Below are positions 44,731 through 58,143 of a stretch of 64,000 nucleotides of DNA, piece by piece. Under the pieces are notes generated by a model that did not search any database, was not told the origin of the DNA, and saw only the letters and a list, made by a program, of their open reading frames with translations. The translations under genes and the position numbers were made by a program. Source of the stretch: Candidatus Cacconaster scatequi (GTDB taxonomy: Bacteria; Bacteroidota; Bacteroidia; Bacteroidales; UBA932); the NCBI GenBank assembly GCA_018065305.1, contig JAGHTO010000004.1, positions 1-64,000 on the forward strand, given 5' to 3'. Positions within the stretch are counted from its first letter, which is position 1. Each line of letters begins with the position of its first letter.

Positions 44731-45933
44731 CTATTCCGAAGTGTAGTTGTCAAAGTAGCCCTGTACAAGGACTATGGGAGTTCCCTTGTCTCCGGAGCCG
44801 CTTGTCAGGTCGCACAATGAGCCGATAAGGTCCGTCAGTTGCCGGGGAGTGGTTCCTTCGGAGGCCATCTGCCCCTTGAGGTCACTGCCCTTCGCCTTTA
44901 TGCTTTCGGAGATGGCATCCCTGAGCTGTGCTCCGCTGAGGTTTGCAAAGTCGTTGTCGGCCAGATATTTGAGCTTGAGTTCGTTGGGCGTGCCCCTCAG
45001 CCCGTCGGTGAATGCCGGGGAGACAACGGGGTCAGCCAGTTCCCAGATTTTGCCCTTGGGGTCCTTGAATGCACCGTCACCATAGACCATCACCTCGATA
45101 TGCTTTCCGGTGCGTTCCAGAAGCGCTTTCTGGATGTCCAGCACAAGGCCCTGGCATTCACGTGGGAAAAGTTTGACAGTATCTTCTGTGGCCTTGTTGG
45201 AGCCCAGCAGTCCGTATTTCTCGTTGAACCCGCTTCCATCCACGCTCTTGCAGAGGATGTCGTCGAGACCGAGAACAACCCTTGCCCCCGCCTCTTTTAG
45301 AATCCTCTTTGTCCGGGTGCGGGTGTGTATGTCGCAGGTGATGACGGTGTCGGTGTATTTCAGAATCGTTTCGGGCCTGTTGGCGAAGACCACCTCCACC
45401 TCGGCGCCGCATCCGCGGACAAGTTCCGAGTAGTATTCAACGTAATCGACTCCGGTGAATTCGTGCCTGTTCACACCGAAGAGCTCACGATATCTTTCAA
45501 GAGAGAGAACGTCTGAATATGGGTTGACGCCTGCCTGGTCAAGGGCATCTATGCTGACCAGAGAGTTCCCCACCTCGTCGGAAGGGTAGGAGAGCATCAG
45601 GACCACCTTGCGGCACCCCTTCGCGATGCCGCGAAGGCAGATTGCAAAGCGGTTGCGGCTCAGAATGGGGAAGATGACACCGACCGTGCCTCCTCCGGTC
45701 TGCTGCCGGACGTCGGATGAGATGGCGGAGACGGGGGCGTAATTGCCCTGAGCTCTGGCTACCACCGATTCGGTAATACTGACAATGTCTCTGTCTCTCA
45801 GTTCAAACCCCTCTTCAGTGGCCGCTTCCAGCACGCTTTCGGTCACTATCTTTGCAAGATTGTCTCCCTGCCTGATTATCGGGCAGCGGATGCCTCGGGA
45901 AACTGTCCCGACTTTTCTCTCGTGATTTTTCAT
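44731..45933 (-). CDS. CofE-like (F420-0:gamma-glutamyl ligase family) protein
   Basis: The 400-residue protein starts at ATG 45933, placed by a TATATTTG box five bases upstream. The N-terminal part recalls the CofE fold (GIRCPIIRQGDNLAKIVTES and DIVSITESVVARAQG), which in archaea adds glutamate to coenzyme F420. The C-terminal 250 residues include HTRTRTKRILKEAG and YGDGAFKDPKGKIWELADP. Bacteroidota are not known to make F420, so a different amide-forming or ligase role is likely. No biosynthetic partner is adjacent. Confidence 0.75.
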   Translation of the reverse strand: MKNHERKVGTVSRGIRCPIIRQGDNLAKIVTESVLEAATEEGFELRDRDIVSITESVVARAQGNYAPVSAISSDVRQQTGGGTVGVIFPILSRNRFAICLRGIAKGCRKVVLMLSYPSDEVGNSLVSIDALDQAGVNPYSDVLSLERYRELFGVNRHEFTGVDYVEYYSELVRGCGAEVEVVFANRPETILKYTDTVITCDIHTRTRTKRILKEAGARVVLGLDDILCKSVDGSGFNEKYGLLGSNKATEDTVKLFPRECQGLVLDIQKALLERTGKHIEVMVYGDGAFKDPKGKIWELADPVVSPAFTDGLRGTPNELKLKYLADNDFANLSGAQLRDAISESIKAKGSDLKGQMASEGTTPRQLTDLIGSLCDLTSGSGDKGTPIVLVQGYFDNYTSE

Positions 45934-45938
45934 ATCCG

Positions 45939-45946
45939 CAAATATA
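45939..45946 (-). promoter_or_regulatory. -7 box five bases before the CofE-like gene
   Basis: On the minus strand TATATTTG ends five bases before the ATG at 45933, so the message would be leaderless. A TTTG at -33 is not seen. Confidence 0.5.
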
Positions 45947-46048
45947 GTCATTTGTAAAAAATAAATCTTTGCCAACTTATTTTTTTGTTCAAGTCTCGCG
46001 TGTAAGTTGTCTTTTGTACACCAAAGATATTTTTTCAAATAAAAAATG

Positions 46049-48167: not shown

Positions 48168-48854
48168 CTACAGCAGAGGTGATTTTTTGCTGATTCCAGG
48201 CTTGAAATCCTTGAGATAGAAAGGTTCGAAGTACGCAGTGTCTTCGAACTTTTTCTTTTCGTATGCATCAGTTGCCTTGCCCGCCATATACTGCGCCAGC
48301 GGGAAGCACTCCTTGAAGCGGGCGTTGGGGTGGATGCAGACTTGCGCGAATTTTTCAACTCCGGTGCCGATGAACAGCGTCTTCCCCTGTTCCAGGATGG
48401 AACTGTAACTGTCTCGGTCCAGAATAACGGCTTCCACTTCGGATATGCGGCTGCCGTCATTGCGGTAGACAGCGCTGTAAACTTCCATTCTTCTGGCATC
48501 TATGAAGGGTACGATAAAATCAGGGTTTTCTCCGCTTTCCATCCCTTCGGCGACAAGAATGTCCATCGTCTCCACGGATATCAGGGGAACCCCTGCTCCG
48601 AAGCAGAGTCCCTTGGCAGTTGACACGCCTACCCGCAGACCTGTGTATGAGCCGGGACCTCCGCTTACCGCCACTGCATCAATTCCGGCCGTTCCCGTGC
48701 CGGTCTGCTCAAGGAGAGAGGCTGCCATCGGCACCAGTCTGGCGGCGTGAACCTTTGGGATGGAATCAGCTGTTTTCGCGATGATTGAGCCATCTTTGCA
48801 GATGGCTGCACTGCAGCAGTCAGTGCTTGTCTCCAGAAGCAGTATTGTGGCCAT
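48168..48854 (-). CDS. tsaB: tRNA threonylcarbamoyladenosine synthesis protein TsaB
   Basis: The 228-residue protein is the dimerisation partner of TsaD in forming t6A37 in tRNAs reading ANN codons. It has the ASKHA-type start LLLETSTDCCSAAICKDG, then VAVSGGPGSYTGLRVGVSTA and KGLCFGAGVPLISVETMDIL. It follows the adaptor gene with a single base between stop and start and converges with the thioredoxin-like lipoprotein. Being an essential gene, it may be read from the secretion operon or from an internal promoter. Confidence 0.94.
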   Translation of the reverse strand: MATILLLETSTDCCSAAICKDGSIIAKTADSIPKVHAARLVPMAASLLEQTGTGTAGIDAVAVSGGPGSYTGLRVGVSTAKGLCFGAGVPLISVETMDILVAEGMESGENPDFIVPFIDARRMEVYSAVYRNDGSRISEVEAVILDRDSYSSILEQGKTLFIGTGVEKFAQVCIHPNARFKECFPLAQYMAGKATDAYEKKKFEDTAYFEPFYLKDFKPGISKKSPLL

Positions 48855-48855
48855 T

Positions 48856-50028
48856 TCAGTAAATCTTGACTTTTTGTCCGTCCGTCAATTCCTTGTTTAT
48901 CGCTGAAAGGGGGGCCGTTACAATTGTCTCGCCGGGCTCCAGTCCTTTCACGACTTCAATCTCTTTCAAATTCTGCATACCGGTCGAAACAGCCCGCCTT
49001 TCAACGGTGCAGTCATCGTGGAGCACCCATACGAATTCCTGTCTCTCCTTCGTAAAGACGCTCCCGAGCGGGATGCTCAGACAGGACTGCTCAAATCCTG
49101 TCACAATTGAGGCGGATGCCGACATTCCTGGCAGAAGTTTATCCTCGGAAGGTTCGATTTCCAACCTGACCTCAAAGTTAGTGAGCTTTTCGAAAGATGT
49201 GTCCATATTTTTAGCGGAATTTGAGATTTTAGTAATTCTTCCGGTGAATATCCGCCTCGGATAAGCATCTATTTCGATGGAAGCGCTGTCTCCTTCATTC
49301 ATTCTGATGACATCATTCTCGCTCACATCCACTACAAGTTCCATCCTTCGGGGATCCGCTATTCTCAACATTTCAGTTCCCGCCATCTGGCTGGTTCCGA
49401 CGACTCTTTCCCCCGGCTCGACGCTGAGTTTCGATACTATTCCTTCGATAGGGGAGATGATGGTGGTTTTTGCCAGACTTTCCAACGCCTCTTTCAACTC
49501 TGCTTCTCCACTGCGTATCGTGTATTCTGAGGCAAGGACGTTTTGTTTGGCGATGTCGAAAGATGCCTGCGCCGCTTCGTATTCGGAGGTGGAGATAGCG
49601 TCTTCCTCAATCAGAGCCGTACTCCTTTTGTACTCCAGGTCGGCTTTTGTCAGTTCGGCCTGGTTCCTGCTGCGCTGCGCCTTCAGCGCCGCCAGAGAGG
49701 CTTTCGCCCGCTCCACTCTGGAAAGATATACATCCTGCCGGATAAGTATGAGAGTGTCGCCGCAGCGGACGGAATCTCCTTCGCAGCACTTGATGCCGAC
49801 AATTTCTCCGGAAACGTCAGGTGAGAGTCTGACCTCTTTCACCGGGTGAATCTTCCCGCTTGCAGGTATGGATTCCTCTATGTTTCCGGGATAGACCGTA
49901 AGAGTCTCCACCACAACGGCTTTTCTGCCGCAGGATCTGGCTGCAATGCAGATTGTCACTATCAGTACGGCCGCGAAGATCAGAATGGCTCTGTTTCTGC
50001 CGATTTTCACATTAATCTTTATTTTCAT
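48856..50028 (-). CDS. Periplasmic adaptor (HlyD/MacA-like) of a peptide exporter
   Basis: The 390-residue membrane fusion protein has one N-terminal span (AILIFAAVLIVTICIAARSC), a first lipoyl half (VEESIPASGKIHPVKEVRLS-like region), a helical hairpin (SRVERAKASLAALKAQRSRN), a second lipoyl half (TTIISPIEGIVSKLSVEPGE) and beta-barrel and membrane-proximal domains. It links an inner-membrane exporter to a TolC-type duct. No MacB-like ATPase follows; the transporter in the run is the C39 ABC protein, which it most likely serves. It begins two bases after the tolC-like stop. Confidence 0.9.
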   Translation of the reverse strand: MKIKINVKIGRNRAILIFAAVLIVTICIAARSCGRKAVVVETLTVYPGNIEESIPASGKIHPVKEVRLSPDVSGEIVGIKCCEGDSVRCGDTLILIRQDVYLSRVERAKASLAALKAQRSRNQAELTKADLEYKRSTALIEEDAISTSEYEAAQASFDIAKQNVLASEYTIRSGEAELKEALESLAKTTIISPIEGIVSKLSVEPGERVVGTSQMAGTEMLRIADPRRMELVVDVSENDVIRMNEGDSASIEIDAYPRRIFTGRITKISNSAKNMDTSFEKLTNFEVRLEIEPSEDKLLPGMSASASIVTGFEQSCLSIPLGSVFTKERQEFVWVLHDDCTVERRAVSTGMQNLKEIEVVKGLEPGETIVTAPLSAINKELTDGQKVKIY

Positions 50029-50030
50029 TT

Positions 50031-51347
50031 CTACAGTTCAATGGGGATTCCACGATAAAAGTCTATTATTTTCAATTGAAAGATATACTGCCATTTGCAT
50101 CGGAGATATTCGCTCTGTGCAGTCAGAAAATCTGTCCGGCTCACCGTATATTCGATTGCGGTGATGTTTCCGTGCTTGAATTTGGAGAGGGAAATGTCCA
50201 TCATCTTTTCGGCGGAGGTCATCTTCTCCTTTGCGGCGAGCATTGCCTGATACAAGTTCTCGGATTCGATGAATGCCCCCTGTATGGTGGCTGACAGTTC
50301 GCTGAGCCGTTTTTCAACGAGAATTCTGGCTTTCTCGAACTCTATTTTGCTGTTCCTAATGCGCTCCATTCCGGCAAACCCGTCGAAAAGAGGAATGTTG
50401 ACGGAAATGCCCACTGACGGATTGACGTTGTTCTCCATCTGTTTGCCGAAACTTCCTGCCGCCGTGCTGCTGAAGTATGAAGAGTAGGACCCCGACAGGG
50501 AAAACGTCGGAGATGCGGCACCCTTGGCTGCGGCTATCAGATACTTTTTGCTCTCCATCGCATTTTTCAGGGAAAGAATGTCCGGCCTGTGTTCGGCATA
50601 GGTAAGGATATCCTCCGCAGTGGCGGACGGTGGCGGTGCAAGTTCTTCTATGAGAGAACGTACGGTCCGGTAGTTTCCGTCATATTGAAGATTGAGAAGC
50701 TGGGCCAGTTTCATTATGTTCCGTTTGTTGTCACATTGCAATCCTATCATCCGGGACAACTCTCCTGCGCATTGCGATTCCAGATTGTAAAGAGCGCTTC
50801 CCGGCTGGCTTCCAGCCTTCACCAGTGTCGCGACGTTTTTCTTTTCCGAAAGAATCCGCTCATAATTGTTCTCAGCGGCCGCGGCCAATTCTTCCGAGAG
50901 AATCAATTCAAGGTAGGTTTCGGTAATGTTGAGCGAAATCTCGTTGCGAAGTCGGTCATTGTCGAGCAATGTCGCGTCAAAATCGGATTTCGCCGCGCGT
51001 ATCATATTCTGTCCGTAAAGTCCGTGGAATATCGTCCATTCCGTACCTACGGAGAAACTGACTGATTCAGAGAGCTTATTCTTGATTATGACAAGTTCCT
51101 GCATATCCACGCTACGTCCCCAGTTGAAATTTCCGCTTCCGTACAGGGCGAAAGAGGGGAGGACTGACAGCCGGGCTCTGGTATAGGCTGTCTCTTTCTG
51201 CCTTACCGAGAGCTCGTGCTCCTGAATCTGCAAATTGTGCTCCATCGCATACCCTATGCATTCACCCAACGTGGGGGGAATATTACCGACGGCGCCAAGA
51301 GGAACGGACAGGCCCGCCATAACAAGAATAAGCAGTCGTTTCATCAC
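50031..51347 (-). CDS. TolC family outer-membrane efflux protein
   Basis: The 438-residue protein has a signal peptide (MMKRLLILVMAGLSVPLGA), then the TolC opening TLGECIGYAMEHNLQIQEHE and two helical repeat halves (LRNEISLNITETYLELILSE; FEKARILVEKRLSELSATIQ). It forms an outer-membrane channel with a periplasmic tunnel. It is 19 bases downstream of the second small peptide gene and 2 bases before the adaptor gene, so it is the exit duct of the same export system. Confidence 0.92.
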   Translation of the reverse strand: MMKRLLILVMAGLSVPLGAVGNIPPTLGECIGYAMEHNLQIQEHELSVRQKETAYTRARLSVLPSFALYGSGNFNWGRSVDMQELVIIKNKLSESVSFSVGTEWTIFHGLYGQNMIRAAKSDFDATLLDNDRLRNEISLNITETYLELILSEELAAAAENNYERILSEKKNVATLVKAGSQPGSALYNLESQCAGELSRMIGLQCDNKRNIMKLAQLLNLQYDGNYRTVRSLIEELAPPPSATAEDILTYAEHRPDILSLKNAMESKKYLIAAAKGAASPTFSLSGSYSSYFSSTAAGSFGKQMENNVNPSVGISVNIPLFDGFAGMERIRNSKIEFEKARILVEKRLSELSATIQGAFIESENLYQAMLAAKEKMTSAEKMMDISLSKFKHGNITAIEYTVSRTDFLTAQSEYLRCKWQYIFQLKIIDFYRGIPIEL

Positions 51348-51366
51348 TTAGTTTTTCTGACAGGTT

Positions 51367-51528
51367 CTAAATCCAGGAGATGATCTTGGCGAACAGTCTA
51401 GCGACAATGCCAAGTACATATCCTATTGTGTAAAGGGCATCCTGAGCTCTCTTGTCAACTCCGCCCAGAATGAATGCCGCCTCCTGCATTTCGACAGGGG
51501 CAAAGCCTTTCAACAAGTTTTCAGTCAT
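51367..51528 (-). CDS. Double-glycine leader peptide B (bacteriocin-like precursor)
   Basis: This 53-residue ORF is preceded by a strong AGGAGG ribosome site, unusual in this genome. It starts MTENLLKGF, ends its leader EAAFILGG at residues 22-23, and releases a 30-residue core VDKRAQDALYTIGYVLG plus IVARLFAKIISWI. The core is amphipathic, net positive by my count, with a GxxxG pair (G13 and G17 of the core). Leader positions L5, K7, G8 and E13 match those of the neighbouring precursor A. The C39 transporter encoded upstream should cut after GG. Activity, partner and target are unknown. Confidence 0.8.
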   Translation of the reverse strand: MTENLLKGFAPVEMQEAAFILGGVDKRAQDALYTIGYVLGIVARLFAKIISWI

Positions 51529-51540
51529 GGCAGATTCCTC

Positions 51541-51741
51541 CTATTTGATGAGAGGCTTGGCCTCAAAACCGTCCCTGAACCCCTGGAGGAGTTTCGGGAT
51601 GTAATCTCCGATGAAGTCAATCATGTTTCTGACCTTGTCAATGATTTTCTGCCACAGAGGGGATGATGCTCCGCCCCTGATCTGAAGTTCGGAAGAATCA
51701 ATCTCTCCAAACCCCAATCCTTTCATTAATTTGTCTTCCAT
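51541..51741 (-). CDS. Double-glycine leader peptide A (bacteriocin-like precursor)
   Basis: The 66-residue precursor has a 24-residue leader with ELQIRGG at its end (Ile at -4, Gly-Gly at -2/-1). The 42-residue core begins ASSPLWQKIIDKVRNMIDF and ends GFEAKPLIK, with an amphipathic helix pattern and a GxxxG pair (core G30 and G34). It shares LMKG and E13 with the leader of peptide B. It lies 51 bases after the transporter stop and 12 bases before the start of peptide B, in the same direction. Export and cutting by the C39 transporter are inferred. A role as a two-peptide bacteriocin or a signal is possible. Confidence 0.8.
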   Translation of the reverse strand: MEDKLMKGLGFGEIDSSELQIRGGASSPLWQKIIDKVRNMIDFIGDYIPKLLQGFRDGFEAKPLIK

Positions 51742-51792
51742 TTTCTTGTTTTTTTGTCTTTCTCTTCACGTTCCGGCGGAAGAGAGTCGCCG

Positions 51793-53868
51793 CTATGAAT
51801 GCGCATTCATATCTATCCTGTAATCCGCGATGCGGACATTGTCACTTTTGTGCGTAATCATCAGAATTGTCTTTCCCCTGTCTCTCAAATCCTTGATTTT
51901 GTCGAGTATGTAGGATTGGGACGCCTCATCCAGAGAGGACGTGGCTTCGTCCAGGATGATTACCTGGGGATTGTGGTACAGCACCCTGGCAAGGGCGATG
52001 CGTTGCTTCTGCCCTCCGGAGAGGATGGAGCCCCTGTCTCCCACTTTTGTCAGGAGTCCCAGCGGAAGAGACCGGATGAAGGCGGCCAGTCCCAGCTCTT
52101 TCAGTATTTCCGACACTCTGCCGAGATCGGGTTCACTGTCCAGACATGTGATGTTGTCGAGAATGGTTCCGTTCATTAACGGAGCCTCCTGAGGCACTAT
52201 TGAGATGTAGCTCCTCCATAAATCAGGGTCTATCAAGTCGATGGGCGTCTCTCCGACAAAAATGCGCCCCTTCCGCAGTGGATAATCCCTCATCAGCAGC
52301 CCGGCTATCGAACTCTTGCCGCAACCGCTCTCTCCCTGAAGGGCCGTGATTTTCCCTGCCGGCAGTCTCATCGAGAAATCTTTCAGAAGGACAGGGCAGC
52401 CGGGGTATGAGAATTCTATGTTGTCCAGCACGATGTCGTCCCCGGGGTTCGGTGTGAAAGGAAGGGATTCTCTCCCTTCACAGTCAAGGTCTTCGATTTC
52501 TCCGATTCTTTCGGCGGAAATGTTGGCTTCCGTCATAGCGTCGTTGATGCTTACAAGCTGGCTAAGCGGCGTGGAGAAATAGACGGTGAGCGAATAGAAG
52601 GAGACAAGCTCCCCCACGGAGAGATTCCCGGCGAAGATGAAGAGCGATCCGGCGGTCAGCAGCGTGACAGTCATTACTTTTGAGACGGCGTCGGACCAGC
52701 TGGCGAAGGCTCCGGCATACCGCCCCCCGCGGTAAAGTTTCCCGACAAGCTCCATATACTGACGGCGGATGGCTCTGAAATATGAATCCTGTCCTCCGAA
52801 GTATTTCAGCACTTTTACACCGGTTATGCTCTCCACTGTCTTTTCTTCGAAAGTGGCCGAACTTTCAATTATCTCACGGTTGAATTTCCTGTTGAACCTG
52901 TCTGCGACGGTATAAATAATGGCGTATAACGGGATAAAAGCCAGCATCATAAGTGACAACCGCCAGTGACTGGTGAACATCAGCAGGAAAGAAACTGTCA
53001 GAATGAGCAAGTTGGTGACAATGCCGGAGATCCCCTCGGTAAGGAAGTTCCTTATTTTTGAGATGTCCCCGATTCTGGAGTTGAGTTCTCCCGCTCCACG
53101 TTTTGTGAAGAAACTGACAGGGAGGCGGAACAGGTGAGACAGATATCCCATCACCAGCCTGCTGTCAAGGTGCAGGTTGAGCCTGAGGGAATAGAGCACT
53201 CTCCCGTATCCGAGAAACAGTGTGCAGACCATTATCGCCAGCATCAGACCGGTGGCTTTCACCAGTTCGGACATATCTCCGGAGGGCAGGACTTTGTCTA
53301 TGATCAATTGGAGGAAGAGGGCTGTGCAGATGCCGGCCGCGATATATGCCATCGCTCCTGCGAGCATCAACGCATATTCTTTCAAGTCTATCAGATGAAA
53401 ATACCGCAGGAGGCCCTTCCTCCCTTCGCGGTTGTTCCATACAGATTCCGCCTGCGGGTCGGGAGACATTGTGACAAGATATCCCGTCCACTCTTTTGCC
53501 AGACGGTCAAGTCCCATCTTTTCCATCGTTCCTGTCGCGGGGTCCATCACGACAGCCTTTTTCCTCTTCATTTCGTACAACACGACGAAGTGCAGGTCCT
53601 CCCTCCTGTTCACCGTGTGGAGGATGACGGGAAGGCTGACCTTTCTGAGACGCTCCACCTCCCGGTCCTTGTCCTTGTACGCTTCGCTGGAGAATCCGGT
53701 CACGCGGCACGCATCAATGATACCCTTTATTGTGGTGCCTGTCCGCGATGTCCCGGACTCCTCCCGTATGAGCGCTATCGGAATGTTCTTCCCGTAATGC
53801 CTCGCTACCGAGGCGATGCAGGCGGCGCCGCAGTCCGACTCGTCGTGTTGTTTGACTTTTCTATTCAT
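51793..53868 (-). CDS. C39 peptidase-containing ABC transporter (PCAT) for leader peptides
   Basis: The 691-residue exporter has three parts. Residues 1-130 are a C39 cysteine protease: Gln7, Cys13 in HDESDCGAAC, His93 in DLHFVVL and Asp109 in MDPATG, the same spacing as ComA-type enzymes. A six-span membrane domain follows (about 160-440). The ATPase has Walker A GESGCGKSS, signature LSGGQKQRIALARVL and Walker B VIILDEATSSLD. It cuts double-glycine leaders and exports the core. Its substrates are very probably the two small peptides encoded just after it. Confidence 0.94.
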   Translation of the reverse strand: MNRKVKQHDESDCGAACIASVARHYGKNIPIALIREESGTSRTGTTIKGIIDACRVTGFSSEAYKDKDREVERLRKVSLPVILHTVNRREDLHFVVLYEMKRKKAVVMDPATGTMEKMGLDRLAKEWTGYLVTMSPDPQAESVWNNREGRKGLLRYFHLIDLKEYALMLAGAMAYIAAGICTALFLQLIIDKVLPSGDMSELVKATGLMLAIMVCTLFLGYGRVLYSLRLNLHLDSRLVMGYLSHLFRLPVSFFTKRGAGELNSRIGDISKIRNFLTEGISGIVTNLLILTVSFLLMFTSHWRLSLMMLAFIPLYAIIYTVADRFNRKFNREIIESSATFEEKTVESITGVKVLKYFGGQDSYFRAIRRQYMELVGKLYRGGRYAGAFASWSDAVSKVMTVTLLTAGSLFIFAGNLSVGELVSFYSLTVYFSTPLSQLVSINDAMTEANISAERIGEIEDLDCEGRESLPFTPNPGDDIVLDNIEFSYPGCPVLLKDFSMRLPAGKITALQGESGCGKSSIAGLLMRDYPLRKGRIFVGETPIDLIDPDLWRSYISIVPQEAPLMNGTILDNITCLDSEPDLGRVSEILKELGLAAFIRSLPLGLLTKVGDRGSILSGGQKQRIALARVLYHNPQVIILDEATSSLDEASQSYILDKIKDLRDRGKTILMITHKSDNVRIADYRIDMNAHS

Positions 53869-53959
53869 GACTTACATTCCTTCAACAAAAGGGGGCGTCC
53901 ACCCCTCTGTCCTTTCCCCTCCTCAAAAAGACATCTTCCCCTCGTTCGCCCCCACACTT

Positions 53960-54115
53960 TCAGTATAATAAAATGACCGAGAGGACGGAGAGCAGAAGTG
54001 TTGCGGTGATTAGCAAGCAGAAGAAGAAATTGGAACTCCCGGGGAGTTGTGGCAACATATCTTCGGCCATACCGTCCAGCTCGGCCAAGGGTAAGATTTT
54101 TCTTTCGTTTTTCAT
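53960..54115 (-). CDS. Small single-span membrane protein, possible immunity or accessory factor
   Basis: A 51-residue ORF starts at ATG 54115 (MKNERKILPLAELDGMAEDM), has a hydrophilic N-terminal half and one membrane span at the end (FFFCLLITATLLLSVLSVIL). It stands 91 bases before the transporter gene on the same strand. Small membrane proteins near bacteriocin exporters are often immunity proteins, but this one matches no family I know. It has no double-glycine leader and might be a false ORF. A near-consensus box (GACCTTTG) ends four bases before the ATG. Confidence 0.5.
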   Translation of the reverse strand: MKNERKILPLAELDGMAEDMLPQLPGSSNFFFCLLITATLLLSVLSVILLY

Positions 54116-54206: not shown

Positions 54207-54692
54207 TCAGAAGATTTGTTTGAAATATGGAAAAATCTGTTTTGCCAGATCCAGCAGGAGGGGATAGAATTTTGAGCTCCCTATTTGCCCCTCAGGGATG
54301 AAGTGCATCAGGTTGTTGGCTGAGTCCACAAGGAAGATTATGGAGGAGAGGGCCACTATGAAAATGAGGCAGGAGACCGCCAGTCCCAGCAGGCGGTTGA
54401 CCCATCCCAGAAGAGTTATCTGTAAAACTTTCTCCACAAGTCGCCCGAAAAGAGTGAAAACAATGGCGATTCCAAAAAAAATCAAGACAAACGAAATTGT
54501 TTTTGCAGCGAAAGGGGCGATTTTAAGATGCCCGCCAATCCACTCGATGACGGGAGCGGAGAACCGGAGGGAGAGGGTTATGCCGAAATAGACGGTGCAG
54601 AAGCTGATGAGCAGTTTGACCAGCCCCTTCTTCAGCCCGAAGTAGATGCAGGGCAGAATGCATAGAATGAGTATGATGTCGATTGTTCCCAT
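54207..54692 (-). CDS. CvpA family membrane protein
   Basis: The 161-residue membrane protein starts at ATG 54692 (MGTIDIILILCILPCIYFGL). It has four hydrophobic spans with the family's early GLKKGLVKLL and the middle GRLVEKVLQITLLGWVNRL. CvpA is needed for colicin V production in E. coli and, in other bacteria, for resistance to bile acids and envelope stress; its biochemical role is unknown. The gene lies 91 bases before the small membrane protein of the export locus, and it diverges from ileS. Confidence 0.88.
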   Translation of the reverse strand: MGTIDIILILCILPCIYFGLKKGLVKLLISFCTVYFGITLSLRFSAPVIEWIGGHLKIAPFAAKTISFVLIFFGIAIVFTLFGRLVEKVLQITLLGWVNRLLGLAVSCLIFIVALSSIIFLVDSANNLMHFIPEGQIGSSKFYPLLLDLAKQIFPYFKQIF

Positions 54693-54777: not shown

Positions 54778-57700
54778 ATGAAATTCAAAGAATACAAGAG
54801 CCTTGACCTTGTCGGGACAAACCGTGAAATACTTGAGCAGTGGCAGAAAGAGGACGCTTTCGGCAAATCCCTCGAACTTCGCGAGGGCGCGCCGCGCTTC
54901 ATCTTCCACGAAGGACCCCCTTCCGCCAACGGTATGCCGGGTATTCACCACGTGATGGCCAGAAGCATCAAGGACGCGGTCTGCAGATATAAGACCCAGA
55001 CCGGGTACCGCGTTGATCGCAGGGCCGGATGGGACACTCACGGTCTTCCTGTGGAGCTCGGTGTGGAGAAGATGCTGGGAATCACCAAGGAGGACATCGG
55101 CAAGAAGATAACGGTCGAGGAGTACAACACGGCCTGCCGCAAGGAGGTGATGAAGTATACGGAGCAATGGCGCAACCTCACCCAGCGCATAGGATACTGG
55201 GTGGATATGGACAATGCCTACATCACCTATGACAACAGGTATATCGAGACTCTCTGGTATCTTTTGAAGGACATATACGACAAGGGCTTTCTCTACAAGG
55301 GTTACACAATCCAGCCTTATTCTCCGGCGGCCGGCACCGGCCTGAGCTCCCACGAACTCAACCAGCCGGGGTGCTACCGCGACGTGAAGGATACGACCGC
55401 CGTGGTGCAGTTCAAGGTGATACGTGATGAAAAGAGTGAATTCCTCTTCGAGGGGACACAGAATGACCTTTTCATCCTGGCCTGGACGACCACTCCCTGG
55501 ACATTGCCTTCAAACACGGCTCTCTGCGTCGGTCCGAAGATAGAATATGTGCGCGTCGAAAGCGTCAATCCATATACCAAGGCTCCCGCCACATACATTG
55601 TGGCGAAACCTCTGCTCGGTGCTCATTTCAACGAGAAGAATCCATTCAAGGTTATCGGGGAGGCTCTTCCGGGTACCGCGCTTGCAGGAATCCGGTATGA
55701 GCAGCTGATTCCCTGGATGAAGGCGGAGCAGGGAGCATTCCGTGTGATTACCGGTGATTATGTGACCACTGAAGATGGAACGGGCATCGTCCATATCGCC
55801 CCCACTTTCGGCGCGGACGATGACAAGGTGGCCCGCCAGAACAGCATCCCCCCGTTCTTCGTGGTGGATGCGGCAGGCGAAAATCAGCCTATGGTGGACC
55901 GCACCGGCCGTCTTTTCCGCATTGAAGACCTTGACCCCGAGTTTGCCGCCACCCGTGTGGACAGGGCACTGTATGAACCGTATGCCGGGAGATATGTGAA
56001 GAACGCTTATGATTCCTCTCTCCCTGCGGACGCCCCCACTCTTGACGTGGACATCTGCGTGGACCTGAAGGGGCAGGGGAAGGCTTTCAACATAGCGAAG
56101 CACACTCACAGCTATCCCCACTGCTGGCGTACGGACAAACCCGTGCTCTACTATCCCCTCGACAGCTGGTTCATCCGTTCCACTGCCGTGCAGGACAAGA
56201 TGATAGAGTTGAACAACACCATAAACTGGAAACCCGCCAGCACCGGTTCCGGAAGGTTCGGCAAGTGGCTTGAGAACTTGCAGGACTGGAATCTGAGCCG
56301 CAGCCGCTATTGGGGCACTCCACTTCCGATATGGCGGACGGAGGACGGAACCGCCGAGAAATGCATCGGCAGCGTCGCGGAACTCTGCAGGGAGATAGAC
56401 AAGGCGGTAGCAGCCGGATATATGAAAAGCAATCCTCTGACGGATAAGGGGTTCAAGATTGGCGACTTCTCTAAGGAAAATTATGAGAAGATAGACCTGC
56501 ACCGTCCCTACGTGGACAACATATATCTTGTGAGCGATGACGGACGGAAGATGATTCGCGAGAAGGATCTTATCGACGTGTGGTTCGACTCCGGTTCGAT
56601 GCCATACGCGCAGGAAGGCCTTGCAAAATTGGGGACACCTCAGTTCGGGCAGACCGCCGATTTCATTGCCGAAGGCGTGGACCAGACAAGGGGATGGTTC
56701 TTCACACTCCACGCAATCAACACTATGGTAAGCGGGAAGTGCGCTTTCAAGAACGTGATTTCCAATGGGTTGGTGCTCGACAAGAACGGCAACAAGATGA
56801 GCAAGCGCCTTGGCAATGCCGTCAATCCGTTCGAGGCTCTGGACAATTACGGGGCCGATGCTCTCAGATGGTATATGCTTACCAACGCACAGCCCTGGGA
56901 CAATCTCAAGTTCGACGAGGCGGGAGTTGATGAAGTCAGGCGCAAGTTCTTCGGGACACTCTACAACACATACTCTTTCTTCGCCCTTTATGCGAACGTG
57001 GACGGTTTCGACCCCGATGCGCCACAGGTTCCGGTTTCGCAGAGAGCCGAGATCGACCGCTGGCTGATTTCCCTTCAGAACACTCTCATAGGGAAGGTAA
57101 GGGTCTGCTACGAGGATTTTGACATAACGACGGCCGGCCGTATGATTCAGGATTTCGTCTGCGACGATCTGAGCAACTGGTATGTGCGACTCAACCGCAA
57201 ACGTTTCTGGGGCGGTGGAATGACGCAGTCGAAACTTGCGGCATATCAGACTCTGTACGGAGCTCTGAGAGCCGTGGCGTTGCTTGCCGCACCGATTGCC
57301 CCCTTCTATATGGACAGGCTTTTCCGCGACCTCGAGCCCAAGTCAGGTTGTGTACATCTGCAGTCAATGCCGGATGCCGACGCTTCCTTCGTCGACACGG
57401 AACTTGAGCAGCGTATGACTCTTGCCCAGAAGAGTACCTCGATGATACTTGCGCTTCGCAGGAAAGTCAACATCAAGGTACGCCAGCCGCTTGCAAAGAT
57501 TCTGATTCCTGTTCTGGACGTGGATGTCGAGGCCAGGTTGGAAGCTGTAAAGAAATTGATTCTCAGCGAGGTGAATGTCAAGGAGGCGGAATTTGTCCAC
57601 GATACCACAGGGTTGATAACCAAGAAGATAAAGCCCAATTTCAAGACACTCGGCAAACGGTATGGGGCAAGGATGAAGGAGATTGCCGCCGCTTTCGCCC

Positions 57701-58143
57701 AAATGGACCAGCAGACCATCGCATCTGTGGAGCGCGGGGGCAACTATACGTTGGAGCTTGCCGGCGGTCCCGTCGAACTGACAAATGAAGATTATCAGAT
57801 AACATCCGAGGATATGCCGGGCTGGCTCGTGGCAAGCGAAGGCACTTTGACCGTTGCCCTTGACGTGACCGTAACCGATGAGTTACGCCGTGAGGGCATT
57901 GCGCGCGAGCTGGTCAACAGGATTCAGAATATCCGCAAGGAGAGCGGATTCGAGGTGACGGACCGCGTGAATATAGTGATTGAGAAACGCCCTGAGGTTG
58001 AGGATGCTCTTGCAGCCTTCAAGGAATATGTCTGTACACAGACACTCGCGGAGTCATTGTCTCTTGCGGATAAGGTGGAAAATGCCGTCGCCGCAGAGTG
58101 GGATGATGCAACTATTGATATTAATGTGAGTAAAATTTTGTAA
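54778..58143 (+). CDS. ileS: Isoleucyl-tRNA synthetase
   Basis: The 1121-residue enzyme charges tRNA-Ile with isoleucine. The class Ia signature HIGH appears as GPPSANGMPGIHHVM (residues about 46-60), and KMSKR in GNKMSKRLGN. An editing domain (about 190-400, WTTTPWTLPSN and GTGIVHIAPTFG) hydrolyses mischarged valine. The anticodon domain and a C-terminal extension (about 800-1121) follow. The large size with no C-terminal zinc cluster fits the eukaryote-like type 2 IleRS, the type often resistant to mupirocin; this last is inference. Confidence 0.96.
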   Translation: MKFKEYKSLDLVGTNREILEQWQKEDAFGKSLELREGAPRFIFHEGPPSANGMPGIHHVMARSIKDAVCRYKTQTGYRVDRRAGWDTHGLPVELGVEKMLGITKEDIGKKITVEEYNTACRKEVMKYTEQWRNLTQRIGYWVDMDNAYITYDNRYIETLWYLLKDIYDKGFLYKGYTIQPYSPAAGTGLSSHELNQPGCYRDVKDTTAVVQFKVIRDEKSEFLFEGTQNDLFILAWTTTPWTLPSNTALCVGPKIEYVRVESVNPYTKAPATYIVAKPLLGAHFNEKNPFKVIGEALPGTALAGIRYEQLIPWMKAEQGAFRVITGDYVTTEDGTGIVHIAPTFGADDDKVARQNSIPPFFVVDAAGENQPMVDRTGRLFRIEDLDPEFAATRVDRALYEPYAGRYVKNAYDSSLPADAPTLDVDICVDLKGQGKAFNIAKHTHSYPHCWRTDKPVLYYPLDSWFIRSTAVQDKMIELNNTINWKPASTGSGRFGKWLENLQDWNLSRSRYWGTPLPIWRTEDGTAEKCIGSVAELCREIDKAVAAGYMKSNPLTDKGFKIGDFSKENYEKIDLHRPYVDNIYLVSDDGRKMIREKDLIDVWFDSGSMPYAQEGLAKLGTPQFGQTADFIAEGVDQTRGWFFTLHAINTMVSGKCAFKNVISNGLVLDKNGNKMSKRLGNAVNPFEALDNYGADALRWYMLTNAQPWDNLKFDEAGVDEVRRKFFGTLYNTYSFFALYANVDGFDPDAPQVPVSQRAEIDRWLISLQNTLIGKVRVCYEDFDITTAGRMIQDFVCDDLSNWYVRLNRKRFWGGGMTQSKLAAYQTLYGALRAVALLAAPIAPFYMDRLFRDLEPKSGCVHLQSMPDADASFVDTELEQRMTLAQKSTSMILALRRKVNIKVRQPLAKILIPVLDVDVEARLEAVKKLILSEVNVKEAEFVHDTTGLITKKIKPNFKTLGKRYGARMKEIAAAFAQMDQQTIASVERGGNYTLELAGGPVELTNEDYQITSEDMPGWLVASEGTLTVALDVTVTDELRREGIARELVNRIQNIRKESGFEVTDRVNIVIEKRPEVEDALAAFKEYVCTQTLAESLSLADKVENAVAAEWDDATIDINVSKIL

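Follow-up and report, generated by a model that had tools for sequence, protein, structure and literature searches.

What keeps a bacteriocin-like locus fixed in place directly ahead of tsaB, a gene for tRNA modification, and what could the two small peptides encoded there be doing? The locus lies in a 64,000-nucleotide stretch of DNA, referred to here as the window, from Candidatus Cacconaster scatequi; the host genus, Candidatus Cacconaster, corresponds to GTDB Bact-11 in the family UBA932 (PMC8957277). The genome comprises 1.90 Mb in 63 contigs, and, of the named relatives found, Candidatus Cacconaster equifaecalis is the closest, with a peptide B that is 94% identical. In transcription order along the minus strand, ORF C, a C39-ABC exporter, peptide A, peptide B, an outer-membrane factor (OMF) and a periplasmic adaptor (MFP) lead up to tsaB (Table 1). 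The original prediction had placed the exporter, two double-glycine (GG) peptides of 53 and 66 residues with Ile at position -4, a TolC-like duct and a MacA/HlyD-like adaptor on one strand, and it was right on each of these points: the leader of peptide A ends in SSELQIRGG and that of peptide B in EAAFILGG, the duct belongs to the OEP/TolC proteins, and the adaptor scores over the cut-off of the RND/MacA-type MFP model. The end coordinate given at that stage, 54115, is the start codon of ORF C, a gene that went unmentioned.

Table 1. Features of the exporter-peptide locus and its flanks, in window coordinates
Feature	Position	Strand	Evidence and details
cvpA, upstream flank	54207..54692	-	PF02674
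ORF C, 51 aa, one predicted C-terminal membrane span	53960..54115	-	ORF and alignment
C39 peptidase-ABC exporter (PCAT), 691 aa	51793..53868	-	PF03412, PF00664, PF00005
Peptide A precursor, 66 aa	51541..51741	-	leader 51670-51741 (24 aa, GG end); core 51544-51669 (42 aa)
Peptide A GxxxG, GFRDG, residues 54-58	51568..51582	-	
Peptide B precursor, 53 aa	51367..51528	-	leader 51460-51528 (23 aa, GG end); core 51370-51459 (30 aa)
Peptide B GxxxG, GYVLG, residues 36-40	51409..51423	-	
OEP/TolC-family OMF, 438 aa	50031..51347	-	PF02321; GTG start, next codon ATG
RND/MacA-type MFP, 390 aa	48856..50028	-	TIGR01730, above cut-off
tsaB, downstream flank	48168..48854	-	PF00814

A Pfam search of the exporter returned Peptidase_C39, ABC_membrane and ABC_tran domains, and its nearest solved structure is 4ry2, an ABC-type bacteriocin transporter. 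The proposed catalytic residues Cys13, His93 and Asp109 are, together with Gln7, invariant in a 21-sequence family alignment. Orthologs of the exporter are present in 37 of the 40 genomes of the genus, as is peptide B. In the three genomes without the locus, tsaB is either missing altogether (two genomes) or located at a contig edge (one), so that these absences look like assembly gaps. Further C39-ABC exporters, distant from this one (29-30% identity), occur at other loci in two genomes of the genus (L055, L056, L057).

We compared 70 syntenic loci from 10 genera, all of which contain one A and one B after the exporter in the same order, with a GG leader in 70/70 A and 70/70 B; the test that the original prediction had set for itself, conservation of the small ORFs beside the transporter in related genomes, thus came out in its favor. 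In nine of these loci, A and B were picked by hand among overlapping frames or out-of-range positions, and one locus sits on a truncated contig ending before tsaB. Two loci of genus g22 (L203, L204) have an exporter-OMF gap of ~1.4 kb, compared with the usual ~0.5 kb, containing unexplained sequence besides A and B. Pooled over close pairs, pN/pS was 0.23 for the A core and 0.19 for the B core, with values of 0.32 and 0.39 for the respective leaders, and the A core of the nearest relative matches that of the window in all 42 residues at a dS of 0.58. The low core values reflect purifying selection and, together with this identity, indicate that both peptide genes are very probably translated and their cores constrained. 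Neither peptide matches a family in Pfam, NCBIfam or PHROGs or has a relative in the PDB, the weak matches being at chance level, so that the description of the peptides as unrecognized stands. The expectation that the cores would not resemble pediocin-type bacteroidetocins was likewise borne out, as the window cores have no YGNG box and no cysteine and the other bacteroidetocin features are absent; across the 70 loci, cysteine is present in only 8 A cores and 18 B cores.

The attribution of the system to Bacteroidales as a whole was too wide. A peptide profile search of 247 genomes of the order gave matches only in UBA932 plus a few elsewhere, most of them within much longer frames, which we judged to be chance. 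The order-wide searches cover ~200-250 genomes and their loose first pass can miss divergent peptides; the restriction to UBA932 therefore applies to the sampled genomes. C39 exporter neighborhoods in other Bacteroidales families are not syntenic with the locus, and some contain other GG-type ORFs: small ORFs of this kind, unrelated to A and B, lie near C39 exporters in L183, L177, L179 and L180, with two consecutive ones in L183.

Within the genus, the block lspA-dksA-ileS, cvpA-C-exporter-A-B-OMF-MFP-tsaB, greA is syntenic throughout. The divergence of the A and B cores tracks that of the exporter (Spearman 0.75). Based on the genomes compared, the locus belongs to the core genome and is fixed, single-copy and vertically inherited. 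As a marker of vertical descent, ileS was dropped owing to its poor correlation with the rest of the locus; tsaB follows the exporter more closely. The ileS sequences (54778-58143 in the window) fall into two identity groups within one genus, ~66-68% and 74-80% identical to that of the window (compared in L040, L043-L047, L061, L064-L068 and others); dksA and tsaB show no such split, a pattern suggesting that ileS was replaced in part of the genus. Neighboring genes are housekeeping, with no peptide-modifying enzyme among them. A search with the Bacteroidetes-type promoter pattern gave no match in the locus; the four matches in the window (8613, 16403, 20091 and 20104), compared with 0.94 expected by chance, all lie outside it. 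At 44731-46038 on the minus strand, the window also encodes a full-length match to F420-0:gamma-glutamyl ligase (PF01996), which is unexpected in a gut Bacteroidales genome.

The locus had been described as a complete double-membrane export locus. All the parts are indeed present, but the ensemble is composite. The start of tsaB lies one base past the adaptor stop (TGA-A-ATG, window position 48855), and at this spacing transcription of the export operon probably continues into tsaB. Among the 41 genomes of other families with a close homologue, 31 have an MFP homologue directly ahead of tsaB and in the same orientation, a figure obtained by comparing the coordinates of adaptor and tsaB matches, and in other families the OMF, too, neighbors tsaB with no exporter present. 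In eight such neighborhoods of other families there is no C39 exporter, as far as the contigs reach. Judging from gene order, the OMF-MFP half is thus an old neighbor of tsaB in Bacteroidales that is not specific to the peptide system, and the family-specific part is C-exporter-A-B, between cvpA and tsaB. Four loci from other UBA932 genera represent the empty site, with cvpA followed directly by tsaB and A and B absent together with the exporter, and one UBA932 genus has cvpA-OMF-MFP-tsaB without exporter or peptides. The simplest reading of these arrangements is that the exporter-peptide unit was gained by insertion, with its loss from the empty genera as a possible alternative. The 'colicin V production' annotation of cvpA does not count as evidence of a bacteriocin here, since the empty sites have this gene as well. 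In six species of genus g16, the assemblies, one of them rated 100% complete, contain only distant adaptors (25-30% identity), and yet all six retain peptide B, with the exporter confirmed in five. On this evidence the MFP would not be indispensable, and the six species must rely on a different conduit or release the peptides into the periplasm only.

A small hydrophobic ORF occupies the position of ORF C in 43 of the 70 loci, including 31 of the 34 in the genus of the window, with a pN/pS of 0.41. ORF C is the likeliest candidate for an immunity or accessory/helper protein; an immunity role is putative, since the ORF was not found in any of the g16 loci among the 70.

A feature absent from the original prediction is a GxxxG pair of the class IIb type. 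The motif occurs in 69/70 A cores (mean 16 and maximum 25 in shuffled cores) and 64/70 B cores (mean 13, maximum 26), and in both cores of the same locus in 63/70 cases, counts that are inflated by shared ancestry; most of the B cores without it have a small residue replacing one Gly. In a diversity set of 26 sequences across ten genera, with a mean column identity of only 33%, the residues invariant in A are the GG, both GxxxG glycines and Met1, with no others, and those invariant in B besides Met1 are only the GG and the second GxxxG glycine. AlphaFold2 predicts one helix for each core, spanning residues 26-60 in A (moderate confidence) and 26-52 in B (high confidence); in both peptides, a short helix in the leader precedes the GG. 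The A core is strongly amphipathic and the B core hydrophobic; most B cores have a net charge of +1 to +5, and the A cores span -5 to +5 with many near zero. Because the motif is located near the C-terminus in A and in the first half of the core in B, parallel in-register pairing is not obvious.

Taken together, the reading that we favor, with some reserve, is that A and B form a core-genome, class-IIb-like two-peptide membrane-active system, which is probably antagonistic. Both peptides would be made as GG-leader precursors; the exporter would cut them after the GG with its C39 domain and export both cores with its ABC part, and the neighboring MFP and OMF probably carry the cores over the outer membrane in most species. 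The mature cores (42 and 30 residues in the window) would be helical, A strongly amphipathic and B hydrophobic, and they probably pair in a target membrane by way of their GxxxG faces and permeabilize that membrane, with ORF C as the putative immunity or accessory protein. We infer these steps, from cleavage and export to A-B pairing, membrane damage, antagonism and the role of ORF C. Several findings speak against this reading: many A cores are near neutral, the GxxxG positions differ between the peptides, ORF C was not found in g16, and a close MFP is missing from six species. In addition, known bacteriocins are usually sporadic, and a locus that is fixed and vertically inherited counts against a plain bacteriocin. 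More tentatively, the GxxxG helix pair, fixed, vertical and core in the ten sampled genera, may have a standing role, such as contact killing, an envelope function or kin signaling, rather than that of a sporadic bacteriocin.

Such a standing role would also fit A and B being secreted but kept on the envelope of the producer, acting there as a pair of contact-dependent toxins or forming a standing structural or envelope component. The fixed, single-copy, vertical locus with its constrained cores is in line with this explanation, and Cdz of Caulobacter provides a precedent as a GxxxG pair that stays on the outer membrane (PMC5380434); we nevertheless consider it rather unlikely, as no surface anchor was seen and each window core has one GxxxG in place of the extended GxxxGxxxG zipper of Cdz. 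Somewhat less likely still, A and B could be secreted signals sensed by relatives, in the manner of streptococcal GG pheromones, with which they share the type of leader and exporter; the good conservation of the cores within the genus and their presence in every species would suit a signal, but two co-conserved GxxxG peptides with amphipathic or hydrophobic helices would be unusual for one, and the housekeeping genes surrounding the locus (~43.4 to 60.2 kb in the window) include no sensor kinase or response regulator, on which ground membership of the GG pheromones was rejected. That the small ORFs are incidental to an ordinary efflux or export operon, as the occurrence of OMF-MFP-tsaB across Bacteroidales without exporter or peptides might suggest, is very improbable, given that A and B accompany every one of the 70 exporter loci, are missing together with the exporter at empty sites and evolve as coding sequence.

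If the class-IIb-like reading is correct, two-peptide membrane-active systems extend well past Gram-positive bacteria and a few proteobacteria, and many genera of a largely uncultured family of gut Bacteroidales carry such a system at a fixed locus. The natural A/B sequence pairs from ten genera provide material for questions of pairing, range and immunity. We found no paper describing a two-peptide class-IIb-like system in Bacteroidota, which is weak evidence as the search covered few subscription papers.

Among known systems, the GG-peptide RiPP clusters of Bacteroidales, with their colicin V export logic (PMC10352776), share the GG leader, the C39 exporter and the MFP with OMF; here, in contrast, there is no modification enzyme nearby, two peptides are co-conserved, and the MFP and OMF are older and linked to tsaB. 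Bacteroidetocins are single class II unmodified peptides with at least two cysteines and a C39-cut GG leader; their genes lie next to one for a membrane protein with five spans and, as a rule, one for a thiol oxidoreductase, with no evident immunity gene (PMC6671954). The present locus shares with them the order Bacteroidales, the GG leader with C39 exporter and the class II type, but membership was rejected, since there are two peptides, the window cores are cysteine-free, and neither a multi-span protein nor a thiol oxidoreductase is found among the neighbors. Cdz is likewise a Gram-negative two-protein GxxxG pair, exported by type I secretion and accompanied by a small membrane immunity protein, for which ORF C would be the counterpart (PMC5380434); it was rejected as a family for A and B because each Cdz protein has an extended zipper and each window core a single GxxxG, and the locus described here is, in addition, syntenic in the core genome.

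The closest likeness is to class IIb bacteriocins such as SpbMN of Streptococcus pyogenes, which are recognized by tandem genes with GG leaders, by GxxxG motifs and by an immunity gene linked to them (PMC5093712). Here we find paired adjacent small genes, GG leaders with a C39 exporter, GxxxG in both cores, cores predicted to be helical, no linked modification enzyme, and a small membrane protein nearby, ORF C, present in 43/70 loci and not found in g16. Peptides of this class are also cationic, and their antimicrobial activity requires both partners; here, the net charge is positive in most B cores and near zero in many A cores. The differences are that the host is Gram-negative, that there is no detectable sequence relationship, and that the present system occupies a fixed core locus across a whole genus and many related genera.
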